Part shown: in pieces, positions 44,607 to 60,480 of the stretch
Numbering within the stretch: position 1 is the first letter of the stretch
How the letters are laid out: every line of letters starts with the position of its first letter
NCBI GenBank assembly: GCA_009839325.1
Contig: VXPW01000100.1
Span: 1-64,000, forward strand
DNA: 64,000 bases
Direction of reading: 5' to 3'
Origin: Rhodospirillales bacterium
GTDB lineage: Bacteria > Pseudomonadota > Alphaproteobacteria > TMED109
Made by a program: the position numbers and the translations under genes
The notes under the pieces: model-generated
Told to the model about the DNA's origin: nothing
Seen by the model: only the letters and a program-made list of their open reading frames with translations
Database searches by the model: none

Positions 44607-44621
44607 CTGCAGGAGCCGCGC

Positions 44622-45344
44622 ATGCCCGCCGAACATACGGTCAAAGCTTTCACCGAGGATCTCGACAAGATCGAGCGCAGCTTGCTCGAGATGGGCGGCT
44701 TGGTGGAGGCCCAGATTGCGCGCGCCGTCACGGCGGTCGCGCAACGCGACAGCGAGTCGGCCGCGCGGATCATCGAGCAGGATTCAGAGATCGACCGCTA
44801 TGAGCAGGACGTCCAGGAGCAGGTCGAGCGGCTGTTTGCGCTCCGCCAGCCGGTCGCACAGGATCTGCGCATGACGATCTCCGCGATCCAGATCGCGGGC
44901 TATCTGGAACGAGCCGGCGACCTCGCGGCCAGCATGGCGCGACGATCCATTGTCCTCTGCGAGACGAGGGAGGTGCCCGGGCTCTATGCGCTACCGAAAC
45001 TGGGAGACGCCTCGCACACGATGCTCAAGGATGCGCTCGATGCATACCGCGACCGTAACATCGACCAGGCGAAGTCGATCCGGCATCGCGATCGGGAGCT
45101 GGACGACATGTACGTCGCCCTGTGCCGGGAGCTCCTGACCCACATGCTCGAGGACCCGCACCGCATCACGCCGGGCGTCCACCTGCTGTTCGTGGCCAAG
45201 AATCTCGAACGCATCGCCGATCACGCGACCAACATTGCCGAACTCGTGGACTACGTGACGACCGGGACTCGGGCGTCCGAGGACCGCCCCCGGGGGCGGG
45301 GCTTCCTCATGGAGGGCGCGCCGTCACCCGACGATCCGACATGA
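44622..45344 (+). CDS. phoU: Phosphate signalling protein PhoU
   Basis: 240 residues, two tandem three-helix PhoU repeats: the first around LLEMGGLVEAQIARAV, the second around TMLKDALDAYRDRNIDQAKSI, each with an E/DxxxD-type metal-binding helix (DSEIDRYEQDV, DRELDDMY). LERIADHATNIAE ends the second repeat. It relays Pst transport status to PhoR and suppresses PhoB phosphorylation at high phosphate. It starts 15 bases after pstB and its stop overlaps phoB (ATGA). The last 20 or so codons include a perfect GC palindrome. Confidence 0.95.
   Translation: MPAEHTVKAFTEDLDKIERSLLEMGGLVEAQIARAVTAVAQRDSESAARIIEQDSEIDRYEQDVQEQVERLFALRQPVAQDLRMTISAIQIAGYLERAGDLAASMARRSIVLCETREVPGLYALPKLGDASHTMLKDALDAYRDRNIDQAKSIRHRDRELDDMYVALCRELLTHMLEDPHRITPGVHLLFVAKNLERIADHATNIAELVDYVTTGTRASEDRPRGRGFLMEGAPSPDDPT
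45284..45299 (+). other. Perfect 16-base GC palindrome near the 3' end of phoU
   Basis: CCGCCCCC is joined directly to GGGGGCGG about 40 bases before the phoB ATG. As RNA it could only form a strained hairpin by opening the centre, so it may be a DNA or transcription-pausing element, or a mere result of codon use (Arg-Pro-Arg-Gly). It could tune phoB expression. Confidence 0.3.
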
Positions 45345-46039
45345 CCCACCGCGTTCTGGTCGTCGAGGACGACGACGAGATTCGTGACCTGATCCGTTAC
45401 AACCTGGTGGCCGGCGGCCTGGAAGTCGACGAAGCGGCCGACGGCGCCCAGGCGCTCGACATGCTTCGCAGGAACCTGCCGGATCTGGCAGTGATCGACT
45501 GGATGCTGCCCACCGTTTCGGGCGTGGACATCTGCCGCGCGGTTCGGCGCGAGCCGTCAACCAGCAAGCTCCCGATCCTGATCCTCACCGCCCGCAAGAC
45601 GGAAAAGGACATGTTGCAGGGGTTCTCCGGCGGCGCGGACGACTACATGGTTAAGCCGTTTTCGACGGCGGAGCTGCTGGCGCGTGTGCGCGCACTCCTG
45701 CGGCGCAACCGCCATGCTTCCGACGAGCACAAGGAATCGTACTTCTACCACGATCTCGAATTAAGCCCGGTGACCCATCGGGTCAGCCGGGCAGGACGGC
45801 GGGTGCATCTGGGGCCGACCGAATTCCGGCTGCTGCGCAAACTGATGGAGGCTCCGGAGCGCGTGTTTACGCGCCAGCAGCTGCTCGACTCGGTGTGGGG
45901 CGAAAATATCTATGTCGAGGAACGCACCGTCGACGTGCATATTCGACGCCTGCGAAAGGCCCTCAACGAAGGCGGGGGCCCCGACCTCATTCGGACCGTG
46001 TGGGCGACGGGGTACGCGCTGGACGTCGATAGCGCGTAG
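45341..46039 (+). CDS. phoB: Phosphate-regulon response regulator PhoB
   Basis: 232 residues: receiver domain with acidic pocket EDDDE, phosphoacceptor Asp53 in VIDWMLP, switch Thr in LTARK, and Lys in MVKPFS; then an OmpR/PhoB winged helix ending VDVHIRRLRKALNE and TVWATGYAL. It activates pst and other phosphate-starvation genes. ATG 45341 overlaps the phoU stop by four bases. It closes the operon, so the regulator would be autoregulated if the operon is PhoB-dependent. Confidence 0.95.
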   Translation: MTHRVLVVEDDDEIRDLIRYNLVAGGLEVDEAADGAQALDMLRRNLPDLAVIDWMLPTVSGVDICRAVRREPSTSKLPILILTARKTEKDMLQGFSGGADDYMVKPFSTAELLARVRALLRRNRHASDEHKESYFYHDLELSPVTHRVSRAGRRVHLGPTEFRLLRKLMEAPERVFTRQQLLDSVWGENIYVEERTVDVHIRRLRKALNEGGGPDLIRTVWATGYALDVDSA

Positions 46040-46280
46040 CGAGGCTCCGCCGGAATTTCCGGGTCCCGGGGGAAAGGCGCTGCCACCGGCGCCTGTCTAC
46101 GCGCGCCGCCGCCGTCAGGCCGCGATGCCGCCCGCCGGCGGAACCTGCCCCCCCGGCGCCTCCGCCGTTGCGGCGGGCTGCCCCGCAGCCGTTGCAATTC
46201 CGGCGACAAATTGGAATGGTGCGGTCCGCCTTTGACTTCGGTACGGCGTCTCCCAGCGTGTTGTTTCAGGAGGTCCGCAC

Positions 46281-47372
46281 ATGCGGAATGCAATCCTATT
46301 TGGCCTGGCGGGGATCGCCGTCGGCGTATTGATCACGTACTTCGCGGGTCGCGACGGCGAACCGGCCTCCCAGACGGAGGAAGCCGCGCCGCCGCCGGCG
46401 GTCGAGGACACCGTGCGCTGGAAGATGGCGAGCACGTTCGCCGGGTCACTCACGCAGCTCGGATCACTCGGCATTCGGGTCCAGGATCAGGTCGAAGCCG
46501 TCTCGGACGGCGCCGTCCAGATCAAGTTCTTCGACCCCGGCGCGCTGGTGCCGGCCCTCGAGATCTTCGATGCCGTGTCCAGCGGCGGGCTCGATGCCGG
46601 CTGGTCGACGCCGGGTTACTGGGCCGGGAAGGTGCCGGCGCTTCAGCTCTTCGCGGCGGTTCCGTTCGGTCCGCCCGCCAACGAGTACATGGCCTGGTTC
46701 TACTTCGGCGGCGGCAAGGAGCTGTTCGAGGAGATCTATGCCCGGCACAACATCCGCGGCATCCTGTGCGGCGTGATTCCGCCGGAGGCGTCCGGCTGGT
46801 TCCGGCAGCCGATCGAGAGCGTCGATGACCTGCAGGGCCTGAAGATGCGCTTCTTCGGGCTGGGCGCCAAGGTGATGGACCGGGTCGGCGCCTCCACGCA
46901 GCTGCTGGCCGGCGGTGACATCTTTCCGGCTCTTGAACTGGGAACCATCGACGCAACCGAGTTCTCGATGCCGGCGATCGACCTGAACCTCGGCTTCTAT
47001 CAGGTGGCCAAGCACTACTACTTCCCCGGCTGGCACCAGCAGTCCACGAACTTCGAGCTGATGATCAACATGGATCGCTGGAACGGTATTTCACCGCTCC
47101 GGCAGACGCAGATCGAAACGGTCTGCGGGGACAATTTCCGGCACTCGATCGCGGAAGGCGAGACCATCCAGATCGCGGCGCTCGAGGAACTGCAGCGCAA
47201 GGGCGTGACGATCCACACGTGGCCGGAAGCCATGCTGGCGACGTTCCGCTCCGCCTGGGAGGAAGTCGTGGCGGAGGAGGTCGCGGCGGATGCGGACTTC
47301 GCGCGCGTCTGGGAGTCGCTGACGACGTTCCGGGAGCGGTACAAGCTCTGGCGGGATCTCGGCTACCTCTAG
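46281..47372 (+). CDS. TRAP transporter substrate-binding protein (DctP-type), orphan
   Basis: 363 residues. N-terminal hydrophobic segment (residues ~4-22), then a Glu/Ala/Pro-rich spacer that could be a membrane anchor instead of a cleaved signal. The DctP fold begins VRWKMASTFAGS; YWAGKVPALQLFAAVPFGPPANEYMAWFYFGGG and LKMRFFGLGAKVMDRVGAS (with the ligand-carboxylate arginine in this stretch) resemble the mannitol/chloroaromatic or alpha-keto-acid (TakP) subgroup. AGGAGGT at 46268-46274 is a near-perfect ribosome site. No DctQ/DctM permease is adjacent, so partners must lie elsewhere. Confidence 0.88.
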   Translation: MRNAILFGLAGIAVGVLITYFAGRDGEPASQTEEAAPPPAVEDTVRWKMASTFAGSLTQLGSLGIRVQDQVEAVSDGAVQIKFFDPGALVPALEIFDAVSSGGLDAGWSTPGYWAGKVPALQLFAAVPFGPPANEYMAWFYFGGGKELFEEIYARHNIRGILCGVIPPEASGWFRQPIESVDDLQGLKMRFFGLGAKVMDRVGASTQLLAGGDIFPALELGTIDATEFSMPAIDLNLGFYQVAKHYYFPGWHQQSTNFELMINMDRWNGISPLRQTQIETVCGDNFRHSIAEGETIQIAALEELQRKGVTIHTWPEAMLATFRSAWEEVVAEEVAADADFARVWESLTTFRERYKLWRDLGYL

Positions 47373-47378
47373 CCCGTA

Positions 47379-48176
47379 TCAGCGATCGGTCACGACGGTG
47401 TTCTGCCCGGAAACGTCGCGGCCGCGCACCAGGTACAGGTCCCGCTTCGCGAACTCGACGGTGCCGGATCGCTCTTCCAGGGCCTTGCCCAGCCGGCGGT
47501 CCCACACCGACGTCGTCGGCATGTAGCGACAGACGAAGCCGGCCCGCCGCCGGCCCGACCGGTTCGGCGCGCTGCCGTGCGCCAGGAAGACGTCGTGAAA
47601 GGAGATCTGGCCGGCTTCGAGGACGATGTCGCGCGCGGTCGTGTAGTCGACCGACGGATCGCACAGTTCCTCGTTCAGGGTGATGTCCTCGCCCTCGCGC
47701 CGGTGATGCAGGAGGATGTGACGGTTGCGATGGGTGCCGGGGAGCACACGCAGGCAGCCGTTCTCCGGAGAGGCGTCGTCGATTGCGATCCAGGCCGAAC
47801 AGCTGGCGAGCGGGCGAATGGGCCAGTACTCCCCGTCCTGGTGCCACGGCGTTTCCTTGCCCACGTTCGCGGGTTTTCCAAACACCGTGGAGCCCCAGAG
47901 CAGAAAATCAGGCCCAATCAGCTGCTCCACCATGTCAAGCACCTCGGGGATGCGGGCGAATTCCAGCCAGGCGTCGTCGCCTTCGAGCCCCTGCGTGCCG
48001 GCCTTCCGGAGGTGCGGGCAGAACATGTTGTCAGTGGTCATGTGGCCGTTGGCGTCGACAAGCTTGTCGAGCGCGCTGCGCATCGCTTCGATGGTCTCGG
48101 CAGGCAAGCGCCAATCGGCGGTGACGTGGCCGTCGCGCCCGTAGGCTTCCACCTGCGCATCTGAAAGTCGTGCCAT
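47379..48176 (-). CDS. Phytanoyl-CoA dioxygenase (PhyH) family protein
   Basis: 265-residue Fe(II)/2-oxoglutarate oxygenase. The iron-binding His-x-Asp is in TPWHQDGEYWP and the distal His in FLAHGSAPNRSGRRRAG, where the following arginine would bind 2-oxoglutarate. LRVLPGTHR is the usual PhyH strand. The substrate is unknown; bacterial members hydroxylate small molecules, phosphonates or lipids. AGGAGGGGG lies before the ATG. It converges on the TRAP protein gene with six bases between stops. Confidence 0.88.
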   Translation of the reverse strand: MARLSDAQVEAYGRDGHVTADWRLPAETIEAMRSALDKLVDANGHMTTDNMFCPHLRKAGTQGLEGDDAWLEFARIPEVLDMVEQLIGPDFLLWGSTVFGKPANVGKETPWHQDGEYWPIRPLASCSAWIAIDDASPENGCLRVLPGTHRNRHILLHHRREGEDITLNEELCDPSVDYTTARDIVLEAGQISFHDVFLAHGSAPNRSGRRRAGFVCRYMPTTSVWDRRLGKALEERSGTVEFAKRDLYLVRGRDVSGQNTVVTDR

Positions 48177-48356
48177 GGCCCCCTCCTGCTGGCGCCAGCA
48201 CCGATTTCGCCGCCACCTGTGCTGCCAGGGCGTGTTGGCGGGGGAAGGTAGGTCAGATGCGCCGACGGGCGCAAGCTCGGAAGCCCCGGGGGCGGTGCGG
48301 CCCGCCTGCAGGACGGTAATCGGCGTCTGGAACTTCTGGTACGGGCGCGGCCGGCG

Positions 48357-50603
48357 TCAGTCCTTGACGGCCGCCACCGCCGGCGTGGCGCCGGCCGTCA
48401 TGTCCGGCGCAACCTGTCGACGCCGTGCCCGGACCAGTGGCGGGCACACGTGCTCGTCGTGGTAGATCACCTGGCAGTCGAGGCAGTAGAAGCACTCGTC
48501 CATGCGGATCGAGCCGTTGGGTGCGATCGCGTTGATCGGGCACCGACGCGCGCACAGCTGGCACGGGGAGCCGCATTCTTCGCGGCGCTTCAGGGGATTC
48601 CGGATCCGCAACTTGCCGCCGATGGCCAGTGCCGCGCCGAGCGGGCAAAGAAACCGGCAGAAGAATCGCTCGACGAACACCCCGGCCGCCAGCAGGCCGC
48701 CGGCATAGAGGACGAACGGCCATGCCCGGTCGAACCGCAGTGAAATGGCGGTCTTGAAGGGTTCGACTTCCGAGGCGGTACCCGCGAGGTCCATGTCGTG
48801 GAACGACAGTGCGACCAAGACGGCCAGGATCACGTATTTCACGGGCCAAAGCCACTGATGCGCCCGGTAGCTCGGAACGAACTGCCGAACTCGCAGCGCC
48901 TGTGCCGCCTTGCCGAGCAGTTCCTGGAGTGCGCCGAAGGGACACAGCCAGCCGCAGTAGATTCCGCGGCCAAACAGAAAGAACGTGACCACGACGAACA
49001 CTGCGAGGAGCACGATCAGCGGGTCCGACAGCAGGACGGCGAGCCCGCTCTGGGAGACCGCTGACTGCAGCCAAGTCAGGATGTTCAGAATGGTGACCTG
49101 GGCACCCGCGTACCAGCCCATCCAGACCAGCACGAAGCCGAGGAATCCGAGCCGGACCCACTGCAGCAGGACCGGCCTCCGGGACAACCTGCCGTGCACT
49201 GCCAGGATGCCGCTCAGGACCACCAGGGAGGTCACGAGAATGGCAATGTTGACGCGCTGGGCGTCCCATGCGGCTACCCAGACCGGCACGTCGTGATCGG
49301 CTGCGAGCACCGCCGTGTTGGTTGGCAGCAGCACAAACTGGTCGTCCAGCGCGTAGTCCAGCCCGAACCAGGCCCCGTTGGTTCCCTCCTGATCCTCCAC
49401 CAGCACTTCCAGCGTCCAGGGTTTGACCGGGTCAATTCCGGTCTCGGCCGGAATCCAGAAGAGACCGATCTCGCCGAAGTCCGGCTTGTCTGTTCCGTGG
49501 AGGAACCCGAGGTAGCGATAGCGGTCCTTGCTGAGCTCGAAGGTCTGGCCCTCCTGCAGCAGACGCAGACGCCGGAACGGTCCGCTCGACAGATGCTTTT
49601 CGCCGTCGATGGAGTACGGACCGATCGTCATGATGCAGAGCATGAGATCGTTCGGGTTACGTCCGCTGACGAACAGGTCGTGCCAAGTGTTCCCGAGGAG
49701 ATTGCGGCCGACGGTCGGCGTCATCGCCGGGCCGGCGTAAATGTCGAGCAGCAGGTCTTCTTCGAACGGCGGTCGCGCCGCGCGGCTGGCGCGTTCGTTG
49801 GCGTAGACGTACAGGTCGGCCGCGCCCATTCCGCTGGCGGACAGGTCGGGCTCCGTGACGCCGACCGCCGCAGCCGCGTCCTTCGAAATCCGCAGCCGAC
49901 CGATGGCGTTGTGCTCGACCAGTGCGTCAAAACCGCGGGGGTGGAATGTCACGATGTCCAGCACCGGCTGATCGTGCAGCCGGATGCCCTTTGCCCGCGC
50001 GACGATCCGGGCCGCCCGCAGAATCGCCTCATTGAAGAGCACGGCGCTGATCGTGGCCGACGAGATACCGTCGATGGAGCCCGGTTCGCTGGACTGGGTG
50101 AGCTGCACCCGCAGCGGCGCTCGGATGTCGACGCCCACGTACTGGCGGGCAAACCGGGGCACCAGGTCCTGCAGCATGATGAGATCAATGATGGGTTCGC
50201 GATGCGCGACCACCCGGGCCCCGGCCAGCGTCCCGTCCAGCCGCAGTCCGACGGCGATCAGGAATTCGAGCGACGAGAATCCCAGCGATTCCGTGACGTC
50301 GCGGGTGACAAACACGTACCCTTGCAAGACGCCGCCGGTAAAGACCGGGGCGGCCGGGGGGTCCGCTTCCATCGGCTCGACGGCGTCTGCGTCCGCGAAG
50401 AGCTCCTGCACCAACTCGAACGACAGCCAGTCAGCGCCCAGGCCCGGGTTGGTCCAGGTGGCGAGTGGCACGGGGTACGCTTCTTCCTCGCCGTAGCCTT
50501 GGAGTTTTGTCGGCGTGGCTTCGTCGGCCTGCGCCACCGCGCGGGGCGGGTGCGGGGGCAGTCCGGCCACCAGCAGCGCGCAGACGATCAGCAATGCCCG
50601 CAT
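48357..50603 (-). CDS. NosR/NirI-family FMN-binding iron-sulfur membrane protein, orphan
   Basis: 748 residues. Signal peptide (MRALLIVCALLVAG, AVAQA); a periplasmic FMN-binding domain (about residues 75-195) whose DGISSATIS resembles the covalent flavinylation motif [ST]GATx[ST] (second residue Ser instead of Gly). Several membrane helices begin around residue 445. Cytoplasmic-side CxxxCP motifs are present (YCGWLCPFG about residue 548, RFLCPLG about 650), then ferredoxin-type cysteine clusters (CQLCARRCP and CFYCLDC). NosR feeds electrons to nitrous oxide reductase, but no nosZ/D/F/Y/L or apbE is in the window. It is divergent from the isomerase operon. Confidence 0.85.
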   Translation of the reverse strand: MRALLIVCALLVAGLPPHPPRAVAQADEATPTKLQGYGEEEAYPVPLATWTNPGLGADWLSFELVQELFADADAVEPMEADPPAAPVFTGGVLQGYVFVTRDVTESLGFSSLEFLIAVGLRLDGTLAGARVVAHREPIIDLIMLQDLVPRFARQYVGVDIRAPLRVQLTQSSEPGSIDGISSATISAVLFNEAILRAARIVARAKGIRLHDQPVLDIVTFHPRGFDALVEHNAIGRLRISKDAAAAVGVTEPDLSASGMGAADLYVYANERASRAARPPFEEDLLLDIYAGPAMTPTVGRNLLGNTWHDLFVSGRNPNDLMLCIMTIGPYSIDGEKHLSSGPFRRLRLLQEGQTFELSKDRYRYLGFLHGTDKPDFGEIGLFWIPAETGIDPVKPWTLEVLVEDQEGTNGAWFGLDYALDDQFVLLPTNTAVLAADHDVPVWVAAWDAQRVNIAILVTSLVVLSGILAVHGRLSRRPVLLQWVRLGFLGFVLVWMGWYAGAQVTILNILTWLQSAVSQSGLAVLLSDPLIVLLAVFVVVTFFLFGRGIYCGWLCPFGALQELLGKAAQALRVRQFVPSYRAHQWLWPVKYVILAVLVALSFHDMDLAGTASEVEPFKTAISLRFDRAWPFVLYAGGLLAAGVFVERFFCRFLCPLGAALAIGGKLRIRNPLKRREECGSPCQLCARRCPINAIAPNGSIRMDECFYCLDCQVIYHDEHVCPPLVRARRRQVAPDMTAGATPAVAAVKD

Positions 50604-50877
50604 GGGTCTCACTCCCAGTGCAGCCAGGGACACCGGTCCAAACCCCGCGATTGTCCAGCGCGGTCGAGAACGGTCAACGGCCCGGTGCCGGTCAGAACCA
50701 TAGACATTTGTCGCCCGGGAAGGGATGCCGGCAACCGGCGGGCGATGCCGCACCGCGACACCGGCCCCGGCCGCCGCCTGGTGCCAGTATGCTTGCGGAC
50801 CAGCGCTGCCCGGCATCCACTGCCCGTACCCCTGCCCCACGACGGACGCTTGGGTGGCGAATGGGGAGGGCCAAGCC

Positions 50878-51873
50878 ATGGCAACGGACCTGCTGTTTGG
50901 CATCCAGACCAACGGAATCAAGCACACGCACGCCGATCCGATGCCGGAGATCGATACCCGGTTCCGGATGGTCCGGGACGCCGGCGTGTTCGACTACGTT
51001 GACAAGACCCCGGCGCCGGGCGAGGTGAGGGAGTTCCTGGCGGCGAGAGACCGGTACGGGATTCCGGTGCGGGCCGGCGGTTGGTTCTACACGTTGGGCC
51101 GCGACGAGGATCTGCTCGTCCACAATCTGGAGGTCGGCCGGGAATTGGGCTCGCTGGTGCACAACGTGCAGTTCCTGGCGAATCATGCCGATGGCCACGA
51201 GGTGACCGACGATGAAGTGGTCAGCGCGTGCCTGCGGGCTGCCGAGGCGGGAGACCGGATTGGCGTCACTCCCTGTTTCGAGGTTCACGTCAACATGTGG
51301 TCGGAGGACTTCCGTCGCGTGGATTCCGTGGGTCGGTCGGTCGAGTCGCACGGCGTGCCGTTCAACATGACGCTCGACCACAGCCACGTGATCTTCAAGA
51401 TCGACAACCCCGAGGAACAGGATATCGGCGGGATTCGCGAGGCAGTGGCCGCCGGTGAAGTTGTGCTGGATCCGTACGCGCCGGGAAACGTTTGCCAGCG
51501 CTGGATCGATTTCGGCTGGGTGCGTCACTGCCATGCCCGTGCGGCGGTTCCCAACAATCCGAAGAATGTCGCAGCGGTCGATGAGGACGGCAATCCGGGC
51601 CGGGGCATCCAGTATCCGTTCAAGCAGCCGGCACCCGGCGAATATCACGCGGAATGGCGGGAAGCCGCCCTGGAGCCGTGGAAGGAAGTCATCCGGGCCC
51701 TGTTGCGGCACCACGCCGCTGATGACGCGGCGACGCTTGGCCAGATTTCGACCGAATTCATTCCCAACCTGGACTACGGCGAGGGATGTCAGTACTCGCT
51801 GTTCGAGCAGGCCATCGCCTGCGTGGAATGGATGCGCGCCACCTGGGCAGAACTGCGCCCCACCACCCACTGA
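50878..51873 (+). CDS. Xylose isomerase-like TIM barrel protein
   Basis: 331-residue sugar phosphate isomerase/epimerase superfamily member (AP endonuclease 2 fold). The Glu of FEVHVNMWSED and the Asp/His of TLDHSHVIFK are likely metal ligands, with further acidic residues downstream (FIPNLDYGEG). Substrate unknown; members isomerise keto-sugars or process inositol and sugar-acid intermediates. GGGGAGG lies eight bases before ATG 50878. It is the first of three same-strand genes with about 30-base gaps (isomerase, enolase-superfamily enzyme, iron-type dehydrogenase). Confidence 0.8.
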   Translation: MATDLLFGIQTNGIKHTHADPMPEIDTRFRMVRDAGVFDYVDKTPAPGEVREFLAARDRYGIPVRAGGWFYTLGRDEDLLVHNLEVGRELGSLVHNVQFLANHADGHEVTDDEVVSACLRAAEAGDRIGVTPCFEVHVNMWSEDFRRVDSVGRSVESHGVPFNMTLDHSHVIFKIDNPEEQDIGGIREAVAAGEVVLDPYAPGNVCQRWIDFGWVRHCHARAAVPNNPKNVAAVDEDGNPGRGIQYPFKQPAPGEYHAEWREAALEPWKEVIRALLRHHAADDAATLGQISTEFIPNLDYGEGCQYSLFEQAIACVEWMRATWAELRPTTH

Positions 51874-51902
51874 GCGACCGTTCCGGCCCGGCTGGAGGAC
51901 CC

Positions 51903-53012
51903 ATGAAGATCACCGACGTCACCGTCACGCTGTTTCAGTGGGACGACATTCCCGCCACGTCCTACAACCGACACACCGGGATATTTGGTGGCTCGAGCGA
52001 GATGGGGTTGGTGACGATCCATACCGACGAAGGCCTCGAGGGGCACGCGTTCCTGGGGTCGGCGCTCGACGGCGCGCACGCCGACGGCCCCGATTTCATC
52101 CGCCACTTGAAGCCGCTCCTGATGGATCGAAATCCGCTCGACCGCGAACGGCTGTACGACGACCTCTGCCACCGGAACCGCGCCGTGGCCTGGCGTGCCA
52201 TCGGCGCCGCGGACATCGCGCTGTGGGACCTCGCGGGGAAGGCGGCCGGGCTGCCGGTGCACCAGTTGATCGGCACGTATCGGCACAGCGTGCCGGCGTA
52301 CGCGTCGTCAGCGCTGCTGCCATCGAAGGAGGCGTACGCCGAGGAAGCGGTGCGGATCAAGGAGGCCGGGTGGGCGGCCTACAAGATTCACCCGCCCACG
52401 CGCTGGGCGGAGGACATCGAGGTGTGCCGGGCCGTGCGGCAGGCCGTCGGGGACGACTACCGCGTCATGCTGGATTCGACCTGGAGCTACTCCTTCCAGC
52501 ACGCGATCCGCGTCGGACGCGCCATCGAGGAACTCGGGTTCTACTGGTACGAGGATCCGCTTGCCGACGACGACATCTACAACTGCGTCAAGCTTCGGGA
52601 AAAGCTGAACATTCCCCTCATGGCGACCGAGTACTCGCCCGGCGGCTTCACGGCCTACGTCCCGTGGATCATGATGCGGGCGACCGACTATCTGCGCGGC
52701 GACGTGGCGGTCAAGGGCGGAATTACCGGCATTCTGAAGACCGCGCATCTTGCCGAGGCGTTCGGGATGAACTACGAGGTTCATCACGGCGGCAACTCGC
52801 ACAACAACTGGGCCAACCTGCACGTGATTGCCGCCATTCCCAACACGGAGTTCTTCGAGGTGCTGCTGCCGGCGGATGCCCAGAAGTACGGCCTCGTCGA
52901 GGACTTGAGCCCGGACTCCGAAGGTCTCGTCTATCCGCCGAGCCGACCTGGAATCGGCGCTGAGATCGACTTCGATCTGATCGAACGCAAGCAGACCGCC
53001 ATCCTCAGCTGA
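51903..53012 (+). CDS. Enolase-superfamily (MR/MLE) acid-sugar dehydratase-like protein
   Basis: 369 residues. N-terminal cap (MKITDVTVTLF, GLEGHAFLGSALDG) and barrel: strand-2 K-I-H in YKIHPP, metal ligands D (VMLDSTWSYS), E (WYEDPL) and E (MATEYSPGG), then GDVAVKGGITG, with the His base in YEVHHGGNSHNN. This fits the mandelate-racemase subgroup of acid-sugar dehydratases rather than muconate cycloisomerases, although K-x-H at strand 2 is not the canonical K-x-K. GGAGGA lies three bases before the ATG. Second gene of the operon; substrate unassigned. Confidence 0.88.
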   Translation: MKITDVTVTLFQWDDIPATSYNRHTGIFGGSSEMGLVTIHTDEGLEGHAFLGSALDGAHADGPDFIRHLKPLLMDRNPLDRERLYDDLCHRNRAVAWRAIGAADIALWDLAGKAAGLPVHQLIGTYRHSVPAYASSALLPSKEAYAEEAVRIKEAGWAAYKIHPPTRWAEDIEVCRAVRQAVGDDYRVMLDSTWSYSFQHAIRVGRAIEELGFYWYEDPLADDDIYNCVKLREKLNIPLMATEYSPGGFTAYVPWIMMRATDYLRGDVAVKGGITGILKTAHLAEAFGMNYEVHHGGNSHNNWANLHVIAAIPNTEFFEVLLPADAQKYGLVEDLSPDSEGLVYPPSRPGIGAEIDFDLIERKQTAILS

Positions 53013-53042
53013 GCCGCGGACCGGTTGCGGGAGCCACACGCA

Positions 53043-54113
53043 GTGGAAAGGTTCGTCCACATCGGTCTTCCCGGCCGGGTTGTGTATGGCCCCGGCGCGA
53101 TCAGCACCCTGCGGGAAGAGATCGGCCGGCTCGGAGTCGCCCGGGTCATGATCTGCTGCACGCCCGGCCGACGCGTGGTGGCGGAAGAGCTGGCCGGGCG
53201 ATCCCGCGGGCAGATCGCCGCCGTCTGCGCCGAGGCCCGCCCGCACGTTCCCGTCGAGGTCGTTGCCGTCGCTCGAGAAGCGGCCCGGCAAGCCGCGGCG
53301 GACGGATTGGTGGCCTACGGGGGCGGATCCGCCATCGGGCTCGCGAAGATGATCGCCCACTCGGCGGACATCCCGATCATCGCCGTCCCGACGACGTTCT
53401 CCGGCTCCGAGTCGACCAACCTGGAAGGCATGCTGGAAGACGGCGTGAAGCGGCTGCATCAGTCGGAGCGGATGCTGCCGGCGACCATCATCTACGATCC
53501 GGAACTCGTACGCGGCCTGCCGCGTGAAGTTGCCATTCCAAGTGGCTTCAATGCGATCGCGCATGCCGTTGAGGCGTTCTACAGCTCCGGCGCCAATCCC
53601 TTTGCTTCGCTGCTGGCCGAGGAGGGGCTGGGCATGATGGCGCGGGCGCTCGAGCACTTGGTGGCCGATCCGCGCAGCCTGGACGCATGGGGGCTCGGCC
53701 TTCGCGCGGCTTGGCTATGCGGACAACCGATCGTCTCTGCCGGAATTGCGCTCCATCACAAGGCGGCCCACGTGGTCGGCGGGAGCTGGGGGCTGTCGCA
53801 CGCTGATACGCACACGGCCCTCCTGCCGCACGCCATCGCGTACAACGCGGACGCCGCCCCGGACGCGATGACCCGCATCAGCCGGGCGCTCGGCACCGCC
53901 GACACGCATCCGGCGAAAAGCATGTTCGACCTGATGGAGCGAGTGGGCGCTCCCGTTGCCCTGCGGGACCTGGGCTTTCCCGAAGCGGGAATCGAACAGG
54001 CGGTCGCCATGATCCTCGCCGCTCCGTGCGAGAATCCGCGGCCGCTCGCCGCTCAGCCGCTGCGGACCATGCTCGAAAACGCCTGGCGAGGGACGGCGCC
54101 CGCGTCCGCGTGA
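53043..54113 (+). CDS. Iron-containing alcohol dehydrogenase, maleylacetate reductase-type
   Basis: 356 residues. NAD-binding GGGSAIGLAK and AVPTTFSGSE; metal-site histidines in AIAHAVEAFYS and HHKAAHVVGGSWGLSHADTHTALLPH. The last stretch closely follows the GLHHKxxHVLGGxxGLPHAxxH pattern of maleylacetate reductases, which reduce maleylacetate to 3-oxoadipate in aromatic-ring degradation. A sugar-acid-related ketoacid is an alternative given the neighbours. GTG 53043 has GGGAG nine bases before it; TTG 53025 is less likely. Last gene of the operon, convergent with the VOC gene. Confidence 0.87.
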   Translation: MERFVHIGLPGRVVYGPGAISTLREEIGRLGVARVMICCTPGRRVVAEELAGRSRGQIAAVCAEARPHVPVEVVAVAREAARQAAADGLVAYGGGSAIGLAKMIAHSADIPIIAVPTTFSGSESTNLEGMLEDGVKRLHQSERMLPATIIYDPELVRGLPREVAIPSGFNAIAHAVEAFYSSGANPFASLLAEEGLGMMARALEHLVADPRSLDAWGLGLRAAWLCGQPIVSAGIALHHKAAHVVGGSWGLSHADTHTALLPHAIAYNADAAPDAMTRISRALGTADTHPAKSMFDLMERVGAPVALRDLGFPEAGIEQAVAMILAAPCENPRPLAAQPLRTMLENAWRGTAPASA

Positions 54114-54137
54114 ACGGGGCCGGGCGGTGACAGGCGT

Positions 54138-54542
54138 TCAGGCGGTAGCGGTTCCGGCGACCGGGCGCGTCTGATCGAACACGATTTCGATCTTCACGCC
54201 GTCAGGGTCCACGATGAACAGCTGACGAAATCGTCCGTCGGGGGTAACGCGCTCGTCGAACGCGACGTTCTTCGCAGTCAGTTCGGCTTTCGCGGCTTCC
54301 GGCGAGCCAGCGCCGGCAATCGCAAAATGATCGACGGCCCCGATGGGGTTCTCCGTGGGCCGACCGGTCACCAGATGCACAACAGCGTGTCCGGCAAGCG
54401 CCAGCCAGGCCCCGTCGAACTTGAACGGGGGCCGCCAGTCCGCGAGCTCCAATCCGAGCACACCGCGATAGAACGCCAGCGAAGCGTCGAGGTCACGGGT
54501 GCAAACGGTCACATGGTCGAGAGAGCGTAGCTCAACTGCCAT
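54138..54542 (-). CDS. VOC/glyoxalase-fold protein
   Basis: 134 residues with two beta-alpha-beta-beta-beta repeats typical of vicinal oxygen chelate proteins: LDHVTVCTRDLDASLAFYRGVLGLEL, then VDHFAIAG and KIEIVFDQT with the closing Glu. Metal-site His/Glu positions look retained. Possible roles are glyoxalase I, dioxygenase or drug-binding protein. ATG 54542 has GGGAGG upstream. It converges with the dehydrogenase (24 bases apart) and is divergent from nhaD. Confidence 0.82.
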   Translation of the reverse strand: MAVELRSLDHVTVCTRDLDASLAFYRGVLGLELADWRPPFKFDGAWLALAGHAVVHLVTGRPTENPIGAVDHFAIAGAGSPEAAKAELTAKNVAFDERVTPDGRFRQLFIVDPDGVKIEIVFDQTRPVAGTATA

Positions 54543-54671
54543 ACCGGCCTCCCAATCACAGGTCGGGGTCAGGCAAGCATAGTGCAAGCAGCAGCCGGCA
54601 GTGGCGGCGGACGGAGTGCTCGGCTATACGGGTCCCTGTCGCTACCGGCAGTTCCCTTCCGAGTGAGTTCT

Positions 54672-56072
54672 ATGCGCTTCATCGCCGCCTTGTTGCTGCT
54701 CGCCCCGACCCCGGCTCTCGCCGCCGAGGCGACCGGCGGAATGAATCTTGGTCTCACGACAGCCCCAATCGGGTTGTTTGCATTGGTGATTTTCGTCATC
54801 GCCTACCTGGTCGTGATGACGGAGGAATTTACCCACATCCGGAAATCCAAGCCGGTGCTGATCGGCGGTGCCGCGATCTGGGTCCTGCTGGCGATCGCAG
54901 CCCGGGATACCGGTGCCGAGCAGCATGCGCTGCCGGACGCCTTTCGGCACACGTTCCTGGAATTCGCCGAGCTGTTCTTCTTCCTCCTGGTCGCGATCAC
55001 GTACATCAATGCGATGACGGAGCGGAACGTCTTCGAGTGGTTGCGCGCCTGGCTCGTTTCCCGGGGGTTCGGTCTTCGGAAGGTGTTCTGGATCACCGGC
55101 ATCATCGCCTTCTTCCTGTCACCGATCGCCGACAACCTGACCACCGCACTCGTGATGTGCGCAGTGGTGATGGCCGTGGGCAAGGGACAGCCTCGTTTTG
55201 TCGCGATCGCGGCTGCAAACATTGTGGTGGCGGCCAACGCAGGTGGCGCGTTCAGCCCGTTCGGCGACATCACCACGCTGATGGTCTGGCAGAAGGGCGT
55301 GCTGTCCTTCTGGGATTTCTTCGCGATCTTCGTTCCGTCAGCGGTCAGCTTCCTGATCCCGGCGGCGGTCATGCATTTCGCGGTTCCGGACGGGCATCCC
55401 ACGGTCGAGTCGGACACGGTGCGACTCCGCACCGGAGCCCTGGTGATCGTCGCCCTGTTCCTGGGGACGATCTGCTTCACGGTGTCGTCCCACCAGCTGT
55501 TCCACGTTCCGCCGGCCTTCGGGATGCTGACGGGCCTCGGCGTGCTCTGCTGGTTCAGCTTGCTCCTCCGGCGCCAGGATCTCCGCCAGGCGCGCGACGA
55601 CGATGACGTCTTCGACATTTTCAAGACAGTCGGCCGCGGCGAATGGGACACGCTGTTCTTCTTTTACGGGGTCCTCATGTGCGTGGGCGGATTGGCCAAC
55701 TTCGGCTATCTCGCCCTGTCCACCGAAGTGGTCTACGGCGGGCTGGGCAACACATGGGCCAACTCGCTGGTCGGAGTCCTGTCCGCCATTGTCGACAACA
55801 TTCCGGTGATGTTCGCGGTGCTGACGGCCTTCCCGGCCATGGATGAGGGACAATGGCTGCTGGTGACCTACGCCGCGGGCGTCGGCGGCAGCATGATTTC
55901 AATCGGCTCGGCCGCGGGTGTCGCCCTGATGGGACAGGCCCGCGGGATCTACACCTTCTTCTCGCACCTCCGGTGGACGCCCGTGATCGCAGTGGGTTAC
56001 GCGGTCGGGATCTGGGTGCACTTGCTGTGGAACGAATCGCTGTTCGACCTCGTTCCGATTCCCTTGCCGTAA
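54672..56072 (+). CDS. nhaD: NhaD-type sodium/proton antiporter
   Basis: 466 residues, about 12 membrane segments, starting with a signal-like hydrophobic stretch (MRFIAALLLLAPTPALAAEA). Diagnostic NhaD motifs: TFLEFAELFFFLLVAITYINAM, SPIADNLTTALV, NAGGAFSPFGDITTLMVW and VDNIPVMFAVL. It exports Na+ or Li+ for protons at alkaline pH; NhaD is frequent in marine and haloalkaline bacteria, a weak hint of habitat. A separate C-terminal tail lacks regulatory domains. Followed by a ~500-base non-coding region. Confidence 0.9.
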   Translation: MRFIAALLLLAPTPALAAEATGGMNLGLTTAPIGLFALVIFVIAYLVVMTEEFTHIRKSKPVLIGGAAIWVLLAIAARDTGAEQHALPDAFRHTFLEFAELFFFLLVAITYINAMTERNVFEWLRAWLVSRGFGLRKVFWITGIIAFFLSPIADNLTTALVMCAVVMAVGKGQPRFVAIAAANIVVAANAGGAFSPFGDITTLMVWQKGVLSFWDFFAIFVPSAVSFLIPAAVMHFAVPDGHPTVESDTVRLRTGALVIVALFLGTICFTVSSHQLFHVPPAFGMLTGLGVLCWFSLLLRRQDLRQARDDDDVFDIFKTVGRGEWDTLFFFYGVLMCVGGLANFGYLALSTEVVYGGLGNTWANSLVGVLSAIVDNIPVMFAVLTAFPAMDEGQWLLVTYAAGVGGSMISIGSAAGVALMGQARGIYTFFSHLRWTPVIAVGYAVGIWVHLLWNESLFDLVPIPLP

Positions 56073-56549
56073 TCTCCGGAAACCCGGGGTTGCGACACGG
56101 CACTCGGTTGCTGCGCCGCGGTTGCCCGAATCCGAGCGTCAAGGCACGCGGGGTCAAGCTCAGTTCATGCAGGGCCAGGCATGAATGGGGCCGGCTGTGT
56201 AGCCAACCGTCCTGCCGCCGCAAGAACGGCAGCGAAACAGTGCTTTAGGGCATGGCGGCGGACGATACCGAGGTGCCGGCCGCCGGGCTGAACCTCAAGC
56301 ACCTCTTCTGGCCAGGAATCGCATCGGTCGGGGGCCCGTTCACGGGGGCGCGGTTCGACACCGCTCCGGCGCACCGCAGTGGCGTCGGTCCGCCAGCCCG
56401 GTACGGCGCTCAGTGGCGCTCGGCGTCGAACGCGGGATCATGCGCCGGAGCAGAGTCAGCAGGTAGCGGCGTGTCGGCGCGCCTGCCTGCGGCTATCTGC
56501 TCCGTCGTTTCCCGGCCGGACCGCGCGCGGCGGCGATCCGACAATCATG
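56073..56549. other. Intergenic region before qmcA
   Basis: 477 bases. No frame has supporting features. Composition shifts from GC-rich to AT-richer near 56540. The most notable element is the repeat set that follows at 56550. No tRNA or terminator structure was recognised. Confidence 0.4.
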
Positions 56550-56575
56550 TGTATTTGCTTGTATTCGCGTGTATT
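56550..56575 (+). repeat. Three TGTATT hexamers with exact 10-bp period
   Basis: TGTATT occurs at 56550, 56560 and 56570, i.e. phased to about one DNA helical turn, in an AT-rich pocket 72-97 bases upstream of the qmcA start. Such phasing puts the same face outward and would suit a cooperative protein-binding site or bent DNA in a promoter. Confidence 0.45.
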
Positions 56576-56646
56576 TTGCTCAAGTCGCACGAATTATGCG
56601 AAATTCAGCTGTTGGCGCTGCATTCGATCAACGGGAGCCCATTGGC

Positions 56647-57687
56647 ATGGAGGCATACAGTCTGAGTCCGTTCCTTGTGTTCGTCATCGCCGTGGTGGCC
56701 GTGATGGCCGTCATCGTGCTGTCCGGCGTCAAGCAGGTGCCGCAGGCCGAGCAGTGGACGGTTGAACGCTTCGGCCGTTACGTGCGCACCCTGACGCCGG
56801 GATTGCGCCTGATCGTGCCGATCATCGATCGAATCGGGCAGCGGCTGTCGATGCGAGAAACCGTACTCGACATTCCCTCACAGGACGTAATCTCACAGGA
56901 CAACGCCACCATCACTGCCGACGGCGTTGCCTTCTTCCAGGTTGTGGACGCCCCCCGCGCCGCTTACGAGGTGCAGAACCTGAAGGGCGCCATGATCAAC
57001 CTCGCGTTGACCAATATCCGAAGCGTCCTAGGCGCGATGTCGCTGGACGACATCCTGTCCAAGCGGGACGACATCAATGCCCGCCTCCTGCAGGTCATCG
57101 ACACGGCCACCAACCCCTGGGGGGTCAAGGTGACGCGAGTGGAGATCAAGGATCTCCGGCCGCCGGCGGACCTGGTGGAGGCGATGGGGCGACAGATGAA
57201 GGCCGAGCGCGACAAGCGCGCTGAGGTGCTGCAGGCGGAAGGGGACAAGCAATCGGCGATCCTGCGTGCGGAGGGCCTCAAGCAGGCGGCCATCCTGGAG
57301 GCCGAGGGCCGGCGGGAGGCGGCGTTCCGCGACGCCGAGGCGCGAGAGCGCGAAGCGCAGGCTGAGGCTCACGCCACGGCATCCGTGTCGGCCGCCATCG
57401 CGTCCGGCAACATCAATGCGATCAACTACTTCGTAGCCCAGAAGTACGTGAACGCGATCGGTGACCTTGCCGCGGCACCCAACCAGCGGGTCGTGCTGTT
57501 CCCGGTCGAAGCTTCCAGCCTGATCGGCAGCCTTGGCGGGATTGCCGAGATCGCGAAGTCGGTGTTCGGCAAGGACGGAGGCAAGCCGTCGATGCCGACG
57601 GAGACAGTGCCCGTGGCCAGTTCTACCGACGACTTGACGGAACCCGCGGCGCCGGCGCGGGCATCGGTGCCGAAGGCGGGCGATTAG
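56647..57687 (+). CDS. qmcA: SPFH/stomatin-family protein (QmcA-like)
   Basis: 346 residues. One N-terminal membrane helix (~residues 8-28), then the SPFH domain (PQAEQWTVERFGRY, LIVPIIDRIGQRLSMRE, LDIPSQDVISQDNATI) and a long charged coiled-coil rich in AEG(K/R) repeats (~185-270), ending in a Pro/Ala tail. It oligomerises into membrane rings around proteases such as FtsH/HflKC-type complexes. ATG 56647 has GGGAG nine bases before. It forms a two-gene unit with the NfeD gene, 12 bases later, as ybbK-ybbJ do in E. coli. Confidence 0.93.
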   Translation: MEAYSLSPFLVFVIAVVAVMAVIVLSGVKQVPQAEQWTVERFGRYVRTLTPGLRLIVPIIDRIGQRLSMRETVLDIPSQDVISQDNATITADGVAFFQVVDAPRAAYEVQNLKGAMINLALTNIRSVLGAMSLDDILSKRDDINARLLQVIDTATNPWGVKVTRVEIKDLRPPADLVEAMGRQMKAERDKRAEVLQAEGDKQSAILRAEGLKQAAILEAEGRREAAFRDAEAREREAQAEAHATASVSAAIASGNINAINYFVAQKYVNAIGDLAAAPNQRVVLFPVEASSLIGSLGGIAEIAKSVFGKDGGKPSMPTETVPVASSTDDLTEPAAPARASVPKAGD

Positions 57688-57699
57688 GGACGGAACACG

Positions 57700-58173
57700 G
57701 TGGATGTTCTGATCGGATGGCTATGGGCCATCGAGTTCTGGCACTGGTGGGCGTTCGGTCTCGCGCTCCTGGTGGTGGAAGCGTTCATCACTTCGATGGT
57801 GCTGGTCTGGCCTGCCGCGGGGAGCTTCGTGGTGGGTCTCATCGTCGCGTTCGTGCCCGACCTCGACTGGCGCTACCAGGTCCTGATCCTGGCCCTGACT
57901 TCGGGCGCCGCGGCCTTTGCATGGGAGTACGCGATCGGCCGGCGGCGGGCCCCGGCCAGCGACCGTCCCGACCTGAACGTTCGCACTGCGCAGTATCTCG
58001 GCCGGCGAGCGGTGCTCACCGACGCGCTTAACGGTGGCCGGGGCCGCGTGGCATTTGACGACAGTGTTTGGCAGGTCCGCACCGAGACGGGCGAGACGCT
58101 CCAGGCAGGCACGGAAATCGAGGTGGTCGGGGCGGAAGGCCTGACCCTGCTGGTTCGTCCAGTTCACAAGTGA
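57700..58173 (+). CDS. NfeD-family membrane protein (short form)
   Basis: 157 residues. Two to three N-terminal hydrophobic helices (residues ~5-85), the charged turn YAIGRRR, then a small OB-like C-terminal domain (YLGRRAVLTDALNGGRGRVAFDD, WQVRTETGETLQAGTEIEVVGAEG). This is the short NfeD that partners stomatin/QmcA proteins. GTG 57700 is used; TAGGGACGG lies upstream. The 60-base gap to the next gene holds no strong signal. Confidence 0.9.
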   Translation: MDVLIGWLWAIEFWHWWAFGLALLVVEAFITSMVLVWPAAGSFVVGLIVAFVPDLDWRYQVLILALTSGAAAFAWEYAIGRRRAPASDRPDLNVRTAQYLGRRAVLTDALNGGRGRVAFDDSVWQVRTETGETLQAGTEIEVVGAEGLTLLVRPVHK

Positions 58174-58272
58174 CGGTGAGCGCGCGGTACCCCGTGGTCA
58201 TCGCGGCAGGTCCCGGCCAACAGTTCACTTCCCGTGTCGGCTACCATGCTTCGGGCGGTTTGCAGCCGGCGG

Positions 58273-59691
58273 ATGAGAGACACCAGTGTGCGCCGGAAGC
58301 GGTTTCTGATCCTGAACTGGCTGTGGGCGAGAGGAGATCAGCGAGCGCGTAAGGCGATCCTGACCGTACTGGCCGCAATCGCTGCAACCATTCCGTCGGC
58401 GCGCGGTCTTTCCCTGGAAGAGGCATTCGTCCTGGCCGCCTCGGCAAATCCCACCGTGCGGGCGGCCCGCGAAGCCGCCAATGCCGACTACGCCGCGGTC
58501 TCGGTGGCGCGCTCCGCGTGGTTTCCCACGGTCTACGGGTTTGCCAGCGCCGACGCCGCCTACAACTGGCTGGATACCACCGCCATCCAGGAAGGTGACA
58601 ATGCGGGGTACTCGACCACGGGGCGGTTCACGCTCGGGCTTGTATACAACCACAGCCTGTACCGCGGTGGCAGCGATACTGAGATGCTACGCCACGCGCG
58701 CCGCACCGCACGCCAGAGTATTGCGGCGGCACAGGGTGTCCAGCAGAGCGTACTTCTGCGCGTAGCCGTCGCGTATCTGGACGCCCTCTTGGCCGGGCAT
58801 ACGGTCGCGTTGCGAGAGGAGGCGTTGGCCGCATTCGAGGAGCGCGCCAGGGAGGCACGTGTCCTGTTTGAGGTCGGCGAGCGCACGCGGAGCGACGTCG
58901 CCCAGGCCGAAGCCGAACAGGCAGTTGCGGCTACCGCGATTCTGTCCGCCCGCGCTCAACTGGCGATCGAGCGATCCTTGCTGGAGAAGCTGGTTGGCGC
59001 ACCGCCGGGTCGGCTCGAACCCGCCGCCGAGCCGGATCCGATGCTGCTGCCGCCGACGCTCGACGATGCCCGCCGGGCAGCCGAGCACTTGGGACCGGCC
59101 GTGCGGGTAGCCCAACACGCCCTGCATGCGGCCGAGCACGCGATGCGTGCCATCCACGGCGAGGCCGGACCTACGGTGGATCTCGTGGGATCGATGTCGG
59201 TGACGAACAAGCACGATCAGGGACAACGCTTCTTCCTGCCAGGGGCTCCCCTGACGAGTGCGGATTCCGCGGCCAGGGAACGCAGGGCGGACATCAGCGC
59301 CGGCATTCGGCTGCGGATACCGATTTACCAGGCCGGCGCAGTCAAGGGCCGCCTGAACCAGGCCAAGCGGATCTACCTGCAACGCCGGGAAGAATGGATG
59401 GCGGCGCGGCTGGAAGCCGTGCAGAAGGCAGAGAGCGCTTGGCACAACCTGCAGACCGCACGGGAGCGCAGCGCGGCGATTCTGACTGCGGTGATGGCAT
59501 CGGCAACCGCGCTGGAGCATATCCGGCATGAGGCGGATGTCGGCGAACGGTCGCTCCGGGAAGTGCTGGATGCCCAGCGTGTTTTGGTCGAGCAGGAGAT
59601 CGAAGCCCTGACGGCGGAGCGGGACCGGATCGTGGAGAGCTACCGCCTGCTGGAGGCCGTGGGTGGCCTCAGGATTGGTGAACTGCGGTAG
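58273..59691 (+). CDS. TolC-family outer-membrane channel protein
   Basis: About 472 residues. A signal sequence (KAILTVLAAIAATIPSARG) precedes LSLEEAFVLAASANPTVRAAREAANAD. The two outer-membrane efflux (OEP) repeats follow: the first ending LEKLVGAPPGRLEP, the second with IRLRIPIYQAGAVKGRLNQAKR and LLEAVGGLRIGEL. It would form the exit duct of a tripartite pump or type I secretion system. No inner-membrane partner is adjacent. The start is unclear: ATG 58273, ATG 58246 or GTG 58234; none has a clear Shine-Dalgarno. Confidence 0.85.
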   Translation: MRDTSVRRKRFLILNWLWARGDQRARKAILTVLAAIAATIPSARGLSLEEAFVLAASANPTVRAAREAANADYAAVSVARSAWFPTVYGFASADAAYNWLDTTAIQEGDNAGYSTTGRFTLGLVYNHSLYRGGSDTEMLRHARRTARQSIAAAQGVQQSVLLRVAVAYLDALLAGHTVALREEALAAFEERAREARVLFEVGERTRSDVAQAEAEQAVAATAILSARAQLAIERSLLEKLVGAPPGRLEPAAEPDPMLLPPTLDDARRAAEHLGPAVRVAQHALHAAEHAMRAIHGEAGPTVDLVGSMSVTNKHDQGQRFFLPGAPLTSADSAARERRADISAGIRLRIPIYQAGAVKGRLNQAKRIYLQRREEWMAARLEAVQKAESAWHNLQTARERSAAILTAVMASATALEHIRHEADVGERSLREVLDAQRVLVEQEIEALTAERDRIVESYRLLEAVGGLRIGELR

Positions 59692-59832
59692 CGGGGAAAC
59701 GGGTGACGTGCCGGCCGAGCGTGCCTTCGGTGGCGGCGCGGGCGGCCAAGCCCGTGACGTCCGGCCGACCCGGTTGGACCATGCTCCGGCCTGCCCTGAA
59801 TGAATACCGGAGCCCCTCCAGTTGTTCGGTGC

Positions 59833-59849
59833 GGGCGGTTCAGCCGCCC
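59833..59849 (+). terminator. Short GC stem-loop after the TolC-like gene
   Basis: GGGCGG and CCGCCC pair over a 5-base loop (TTCAG), 142 bases after the tolC stop and 115 before the next start. No U-run follows. A factor-independent terminator is possible. The surrounding 272-base gap also contains a short direct repeat (GTGACGT...CCGGCCGA, at about 59703 and 59755). Confidence 0.3.
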
Positions 59850-59963
59850 AAGATGATCGAGGCGACGGTTCACACGTGAGCGCGTCGGCGGGTATGTATT
59901 CGCCGTGTGGGGCCGGACTGGTGGCCGGCGGTACCGTGCCAGGGTGCCCCGGAGGAATGGAAC

Positions 59964-60389
59964 GTGGTTGACGCGAGGCTGACCGAAACGGAACGTGCTG
60001 CCGCCCGTCACATGCGGGCGGCAGCCGAGTTGGTGGCGCACTACGTGGACGCAGCCGTGCGCGCCGGCACTAGCGCCGACGACATCAACGCAGTCTTGTC
60101 TCGCGTCGTGGCGGGGACGGTACTGGCGGAAATTTGGGTGACGGACGAAACCGGGAAGACCCAGTACAGCAGCACGCCGGACACCGCCTTTACCTTTCCT
60201 TCCAATCCTGCAGCGCCGGGTCAGGCGGCACCGTTTGCGATGCTGCTGACCGGCCAGGCGGACCACGTCGAACAGGGCGTGCAACCCCGAGAGCTGGACG
60301 GGAAACGCATGATGTATGTCGGTGTCGCTGGCGTTGACCGCACGCGCATCGTTCAGGTCGGTTTGTCAGAAGCGGCCCTCGCCACGTAA
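59964..60389 (+). CDS. Stand-alone Cache-like sensor domain protein, soluble
   Basis: 141 residues without signal peptide or membrane helix. An N-terminal helix (RLTETERAAARHMRAAAELVAHYVDA) is followed by VLAEIWVTDETGKTQYSSTPD, then PFAMLLTGQADHVEQGVQPRELDGKRMMYVGVAGVDRTRIVQVGLS. This pattern resembles the ligand-binding part of (double) Cache chemoreceptors, but here with no transmembrane or output domain. GGAGGAA at 59951-59957 gives a very good start for GTG 59964. Alternatively a truncated chemoreceptor or a small-molecule binding accessory protein. Confidence 0.6.
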   Translation: MVDARLTETERAAARHMRAAAELVAHYVDAAVRAGTSADDINAVLSRVVAGTVLAEIWVTDETGKTQYSSTPDTAFTFPSNPAAPGQAAPFAMLLTGQADHVEQGVQPRELDGKRMMYVGVAGVDRTRIVQVGLSEAALAT

Positions 60390-60480
60390 CGACCTGTCTT
60401 CCGCGGCCCCCGGCGGCGCGTCCGTCAGCAGGTACGGAACGGGCGGGCGGCCGTCCGGTTCTGGCGGCAGGCGGATTGCA

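Follow-up and report, generated by a model that had tools for sequence, protein, structure and literature searches.

Non-phosphorylative catabolism of sugar acids has been proposed for enolase-superfamily paralogues of marine SAR202 bacteria, acting with NAD(P)-dependent dehydrogenases (accessible part of PMC10444878). We analysed a locus of related composition in a Rhodospirillales bacterium (assembly GCA_009839325.1), on positions 1 to 64,000 of contig VXPW01000100.1, a stretch of 64,000 nucleotides hereafter called the window. Three adjacent genes encode a TIM-barrel protein (gene 1), a predicted acid-sugar dehydratase of the enolase superfamily (gene 2) and a dehydrogenase (gene 3). Enolase-superfamily enzymes and NAD(P)-dependent dehydrogenases are common to the two systems; the locus differs in that its dehydrogenase is of the maleylacetate reductase type, that a TIM barrel is added, and that the aldarate enzyme KdgD does not rise above its cut-off. 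We read the trio as a self-contained catabolic operon of one genus of uncultured Alphaproteobacteria, made of parts that circulate separately and predicted to serve a route for sugar-acid-like (di)carboxylates, with the order of chemistry proposed below; we consider this reading evenly poised between right and wrong. The operon is probably ordinary in kind, uniting known enzyme families in a combination not seen before, with a substrate class that is predicted. Searches of an open-access library found no description of this enzyme combination. The genes are the following.

50878..51873, plus strand: gene 1 (P0001), 331 residues, ATG start, xylose-isomerase-like TIM barrel.
51903..53012, plus strand: gene 2 (P0002), 369 residues, ATG start, enolase superfamily, mandelate-racemase type, probable acid-sugar dehydratase.
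53043..54113, plus strand: gene 3 (P0003), 356 residues, GTG start, maleylacetate-reductase-type NAD(P)-dependent oxidoreductase of the iron-alcohol dehydrogenase (iron-ADH) fold.

The original prediction had described a three-gene catabolic operon with genes of 331, 369 and 356 residues, gaps of about 30 bases and good Shine-Dalgarno sites. All of this was borne out by the open reading frames (ORFs): the spacing is 29 bp between genes 1 and 2 and 30 bp between genes 2 and 3, and purine-rich Shine-Dalgarno sites were found for gene 1 (GGGAGGG), gene 2 (GGAGG) and gene 3 (GGGAG). An alternative TTG start of gene 3 at 53025 would give 362 residues. The three enzyme types it had named, an isomerase-type TIM barrel, an enolase-superfamily member and a maleylacetate-reductase-type enzyme, were recovered as well, from Pfam and NCBIfam for gene 2 and, as an iron-type ADH, for gene 3, and from an AlphaFold model for gene 1. 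The reading as a catabolic operon stands. A consensus scan of the operon ends found neither a plus-strand sigma-70 promoter nor a terminator, so that it is from the spacing only that we infer co-transcription.

Genes 1 to 3 occur together in 7/7 genomes of the genus, i.e. that of the window and six congeners that were found, and outside this alphaproteobacterial genus the trio was not seen. Its congeners in GTDB are the isolates jk18x25bins.17, jk18x34bins.19, jk18x7bins.108 and 277c_14. Ratios of nonsynonymous to synonymous substitution rates (dN/dS) against the six congeners were 0.02-0.10 for gene 1, 0.02-0.06 for gene 2 and 0.17-0.24 for gene 3, the last lying above the range of the two others (0.02-0.10) in the same congeners. 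Purifying selection acts on all three genes, and all encode maintained proteins; as the trio is kept in six congeners with low dN/dS, genes 1 to 3 are not chance ORFs.

Gene 2 matched both MR_MLE domains above the Pfam cut-offs (168.9 against 29.4 bits for the C-domain, 43.9 against 22 for the N-domain). Its best sequence matches in the PDB, at ~204 bits, were 1rvk, 4hcd and 4mmw, and it is 38% identical over its full length to 4hch, the same Agrobacterium tumefaciens enzyme, titled D-glucarate dehydratase. The K-x-H motif and three metal ligands are common to both proteins; they differ at D267 of gene 2, part of a presumed His-Asp dyad, where 1rvk has Gly. A model of gene 2, with a predicted local distance difference test score (pLDDT) of 84.2, had as its top fold match a member of the enolase superfamily, solved with m-xylarate and L-lyxarate (Z 45.0, root-mean-square deviation (rmsd) 2.1, 361 residues aligned), the first matches being tied. 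K161-x-H163, D191, E217, E243, D267, H294 and E319 were invariant in 13/13 aligned relatives, down to 40% identity. We take D191, E217 and E243 to be the metal ligands, K161 to end the second strand, and D267 with H294 to form the Asp-His dyad, together a mandelate-racemase-type set. Gene 2 is a probable acid-sugar dehydratase, as predicted from its sequence. A chloroaromatic reading, in which a chloromuconate cycloisomerase would work with a maleylacetate reductase, was dropped because gene 2 carries the mandelate-racemase-type dyad; chloromuconate cycloisomerase stands further down the fold list (Z 42.8, 24% identity).

The closest PDB match of gene 3 was 3jzd (321 bits), and the maleylacetate reductases 3hl0 and 3w5s followed at 252-255 bits. 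According to the accessible part of PMC5125639, 3jzd is HxqD of Cupriavidus necator JMP134, enzymes of the maleylacetate reductase subfamily are active in the absence of metal, the probable reason being that Asn or Arg stands in place of the ligand Asp, and a possible action on the substrate is ascribed to His243 of GraC. Gene 3 has N170 at the position of the metal-ligand Asp, together with H174, H239, H243 and H253, and equivalents of N170 and H243 were present in 27/27 scored loci. By its sequence it would therefore belong to the maleylacetate reductases, with an iron-ADH fold in which the ligand Asp has become Asn. The Asp-to-Asn exchange and the catalytic His are what it has in common with subfamily cd08177 (HxqD, and the GraC-like 3w5s at 252 bits); what sets it apart is a genus devoid of the hydroxyquinol/catechol 1,2-dioxygenase domain (0/7 genomes), and its association with a TIM barrel and an acid dehydratase. 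Its nearest relatives in the class outside the genus are at most 49% identical.

Gene 1 belongs to a widespread uncharacterised family. Its match to PF01261, the xylose-isomerase-like TIM barrel, reached 22 bits (E 1.5e-4), under the Pfam gathering score of 31.1; the NCBIfam search gave no model match, and no PDB chain matched in sequence up to E 1, with either the single sequence or a 23-sequence profile. The AlphaFold model, built from 56 sequences, had a mean pLDDT of 95.1 and a predicted template modelling score (pTM) of 0.93. It aligned best to the isomerase Art22 (Z 22.5, rmsd 3.3, 255 residues aligned; many matches tied), and gave Z 21-22 with IolE and 20-21 with L-ribulose 3-epimerase, at 9-17% identity; Foldseek concurred with a sugar isomerase/epimerase fold. 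As modelled, gene 1 has a TIM-barrel fold like that of sugar isomerases and epimerases. Four residues, E135, D167, H219 and E293, are kept in at least 90% of the rows of both gene-1 alignments, with Gln in place of H219 in 2/23 family sequences; by analogy with the sugar isomerase superfamily, we propose them as a putative divalent-metal site. The likeness to IolE, L-ribulose 3-epimerase and xylose isomerase lies in the modelled fold (Z about 20 to 22.5) and possibly in this proposed E/D/H/E site, and the difference in the sequence.

From these assignments a route can be proposed. On Mg2+, gene 2 would take the alpha-proton from a hydroxylated carboxylate, the likeliest being a sugar monoacid or aldarate, and a 2-keto-3-deoxy acid would form as water is eliminated. 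Gene 1, as a metal-dependent TIM barrel of the sugar-isomerase/epimerase type, would supply the hydroxy- or keto-acid or rearrange it. The resulting keto or ene-keto acid would be reduced (or reversibly oxidised) by gene 3, an NAD(P)H enzyme that is independent of metal, and so be led towards central metabolism. Two neighbours might contribute: a PhyH dioxygenase (P0004) may hydroxylate the substrate beforehand, and a ketoacid-type binding protein (P0006) of a tripartite ATP-independent periplasmic (TRAP) transporter may take it up. We infer both the substrate of the operon and the order of the steps.

The original prediction had left the substrate between a sugar acid and an aromatic-derived acid. 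The sugar-acid branch is favoured by the nearest structures of gene 2 and by sugar-acid-type clusters around relatives; the aromatic branch, discussed below, came out weakened. On a Polaromonas plasmid, a 67% relative of gene 2 is surrounded by binding proteins for carboxylate transport, by dehydrogenases for hydroxyacids and semialdehydes, and by another enolase-type enzyme. In genome G008, of the same family as the window's, a 45% relative of gene 1 adjoins a 35% enolase-type gene, in a cluster that further holds a short-chain dehydrogenase/reductase (SDR), lactonase-like proteins and a sugar-type ABC transporter (genes named by eye), and that reads by eye as a sugar-acid cluster. On a Burkholderia cenocepacia plasmid, a 48% relative of gene 1 and an MR/MLE gene are ~4 kb apart, in a cluster with iolG and a UxaA-family hydrolase.

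G008 and the Burkholderia plasmid are exceptions, and several observations weigh against a joint sugar-acid pathway. The flanks (PhyH, TRAP, NosR-like, VOC and antiporter genes) are syntenic too in the six congeners; genus-level conservation alone is therefore no proof of such a pathway. No relative of gene 2 or gene 3 was near gene 1 in 20 loci elsewhere in the class, no relative of gene 1 or gene 3 adjoined the close gene-2 relatives (62-71% identity) found in 18 of the 381 class genomes outside the genus, and none of 76 gene-1 loci outside the genus had a gene-3 relative. In the same 76 loci, distant enolase-type genes were scarcer close to gene 1 than farther away (1 near, 10 far). At the level of enzymes, gene 2 reached no NCBIfam equivalog, the best being arabinonate dehydratase at 129.5 against 650 bits. 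KdgD (5-dehydro-4-deoxyglucarate dehydratase, TIGR03249) was above its cut-off in 0/7 genomes of the genus, with sub-threshold relatives in 7/7, and the SDR-type sugar dehydrogenase that stands beside several gene-2 relatives is absent from the operon. Gene 1 and a close gene 2 did occur together in 6 of the 381 genomes outside the genus, for 1.0 expected (hypergeometric P 2e-4, uncorrected for kinship, four of the six genomes being from one family and two from another). It is fair to say that the arrangement is specific to the genus, and that its parts travel independently elsewhere.

The neighbouring genes are the following.

46281..47372, plus strand: P0006, TRAP DctP solute-binding protein, ketoacid-binding type; possible uptake component, weak link.
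47379..48176, minus strand: P0004, PhyH-family Fe(II)/2-oxoglutarate dioxygenase; possible gene-1 partner.
48357..50603, minus strand: P0007, NosR/NirI-like FMN/4Fe-4S membrane protein, its gene separating that of PhyH from the operon; boundary, outside the operon.
54138..54542, minus strand: P0005, VOC/glyoxalase-fold protein in convergent orientation to gene 3; boundary feature, link to the operon unsupported.

With a divergent NosR-like gene on the 5′ side and a convergent VOC gene on the 3′ side, genes 1 to 3 form a separate unit. The listed ORF of P0007 extends to 50927, yet homology with the congeners starts only at residue 48 to 92, and we estimate that its true start is near 50603; against the NosR model it scored 561.5 bits, under the 1000-bit cut-off. 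Directly 5′ of the TRAP protein, at 43821-46039 of the window, PstB-, PhoU- and PhoB-like phosphate-regulation genes were recognised by eye, and so were, past the VOC gene at 54669-59691, an NhaD-like antiporter, an SPFH/NfeD-like pair and a TolC-like outer-membrane protein.

The dioxygenase, TRAP and VOC proteins had been thought to take part in the same metabolism as the operon. We examined their families around gene-1 relatives, of which 259 loci were confirmed in the GTDB collection and the best 80 of the 259 were kept. Lineages are gene-1 clusters at 80% identity (39 lineages), and neighbours come from a simple ORF caller (longest ORFs, codon-position bias), so that gene borders outside the window are approximate. 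The suggestion gained ground for PhyH, weakly for TRAP and not at all for VOC, P0005 having no relative in the 76 loci. DctP was near gene-1 relatives in 2/39 lineages, and in addition at locus L125, where PhyH and two DctP-type genes lie near the gene-1 relative; at the nearest outside relative, L124, PhyH, DctP and DctM are close to gene 1.

The PhyH results give rise to another explanation, in which gene 1 and the PhyH dioxygenase would be partners in a more widely conserved pair, with genes 2 and 3 as unrelated passengers on a shared transcript. PhyH was found within 4 kb of gene-1 relatives in 26/76 loci and 18/39 lineages, and its density was 5.8 times higher near gene 1 than far from it (37 genes over 524 kb of near sequence, 5 over 410 kb of far sequence); of the families used for comparison (DctP 0.78, SDR 0.68, ABC 1.1) none was clearly enriched. 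In 11 loci, from 5 lineages, it is the immediate same-strand neighbour of the gene-1 relative. P0004-like proteins (39-43% identity) are directly 3′ of gene 1 in SAR116-type loci. Among the adjacent same-strand ORFs (n=90; 2/92 ORFs of more than 900 residues were excluded from the Pfam tally), PhyH was the top family (12), followed by TauD (5). The PhyH gene of the window is in keeping with this distribution. On the other side, it lies 2.7 kb 5′ of the operon, on the opposite strand and across the NosR-like gene; 21/39 lineages have no PhyH within 4 kb, some of their flanks being shortened by contig ends; and in G008 it is an enolase-type gene that adjoins gene 1. We regard this pairing, with genes 2 and 3 as passengers, as possible but on the unlikely side.

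A recurrent oxygenase-rich cluster is found in several SAR116-type loci (L173:7127-11842, L161, L165, L174, L180): a TauD-type gene, the gene-1 relative and PhyH all lie on one strand, and L173 continues with a thiolase-like gene and a second PhyH. An enrichment of zinc-dependent alcohol dehydrogenases near gene 1 (ratio 16) was discarded, because the seed overlapped the gene-1 relative and hits fell at negative distances, with many spurious frames over gene 1.

The gene-1 family is present in 26/385 class genomes (one with fragments only), and its relatives span Alphaproteobacteria (including Thalassobaculum and SAR116), Gammaproteobacteria and SAR324. Distant relatives were found on 53 plasmid records, with 30.5-48% identity among the best 20 of the 53. 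Those on Klebsiella, Paraburkholderia caffeinilytica and Acinetobacter plasmids (31-35%; L055:6840-12369, L056:4082-10050 and L057:5552-9044) have N-demethylase-like Rieske oxygenase genes and 2-oxoglutarate oxygenases nearby, and a nucleobase symporter in two of them; the accessible parts of PMC4408171 and PMC8055839, on caffeine gene clusters, give no function for the gene-1 relative there. The PhyH and TauD genes near many chromosomal gene-1 loci, and the N-demethylase-like Rieske genes beside 34-35% plasmid relatives, are the basis for a more speculative thought, that the gene-1 family of marine-type Proteobacteria processes the products of mononuclear-iron oxygenases and was wired here into a dehydratase-reductase operon, as a new catabolic route. 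We doubt that this is so.

An aromatic-acid route would make gene 3 a true maleylacetate reductase of a hydroxyquinol-, resorcinol- or hydroquinone-type pathway, genes 1 and 2 processing a ring-derived acid. Gene 3 does bear the hallmark of these reductases and is closest to HxqD, and on a Rhodococcus plasmid a 44% relative of gene 2 has both a dioxygenase and a maleylacetate reductase at a distance of a few kb. A hydroxyquinol route requires a dioxygenase with PF04444 (catechol/hydroxyquinol 1,2-dioxygenase N-domain). This domain was found in 0/7 congeners, with Corynebacterium glutamicum as a positive control, against 18/25 other class genomes bearing a maleylacetate-reductase-type gene. The seven such genomes that are devoid of it include those of loci L212 and L213, where 47% relatives of gene 3 lie beside ring-hydroxylating and LigB-like dioxygenases (by eye), and the aromatic role of gene 3 is therefore weakened only. 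Hits to PF00775 in the congeners, which count in favour of the route, resemble, by eye, a protocatechuate dioxygenase pair. Further points against the route are that gene 2 is of the mandelate-racemase and not of the muconate-cycloisomerase type, and that inspection by eye of 44000 to 60500 of the window turned up no ring-cleavage gene. A search for the hydroquinone dioxygenase PnpD carries no weight, as no control genome gave a match. Overall, the hydroxyquinol-type branch appears weakened, and we hold the aromatic-acid route to be unlikely. The window's genome has, as further PF00775 hits, two intradiol-dioxygenase-like proteins with twin-arginine-like leaders (by eye), probably exported (L206:6055-6774 and L207:5572-6588, both on the minus strand).

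Finally, that no pathway exists, a neutral rearrangement in the ancestor of the genus having juxtaposed unrelated housekeeping or detoxification enzymes, agrees with a trio limited to one genus amid equally syntenic flanks, with close relatives of genes 1 and 2 that are separate elsewhere and with the faster evolution of gene 3, but is quite improbable given the tight spacing, the three Shine-Dalgarno sites and the overlap of gene 1 and close gene 2 above expectation, kinship again uncorrected.

The main puzzle of the locus is what the gene-1 family does and how it is connected with iron oxygenases. This family is the broader lead: it is conserved in marine Alphaproteobacteria, SAR116, Gammaproteobacteria and SAR324, has a recurrent oxygenase neighbour, and is without a structure or a curated NCBIfam model. 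If the operon is indeed a pathway, uncultured bacteria would have a further route for compounds resembling sugar acids, and a maleylacetate-reductase-type enzyme would gain a role beyond aromatic breakdown.

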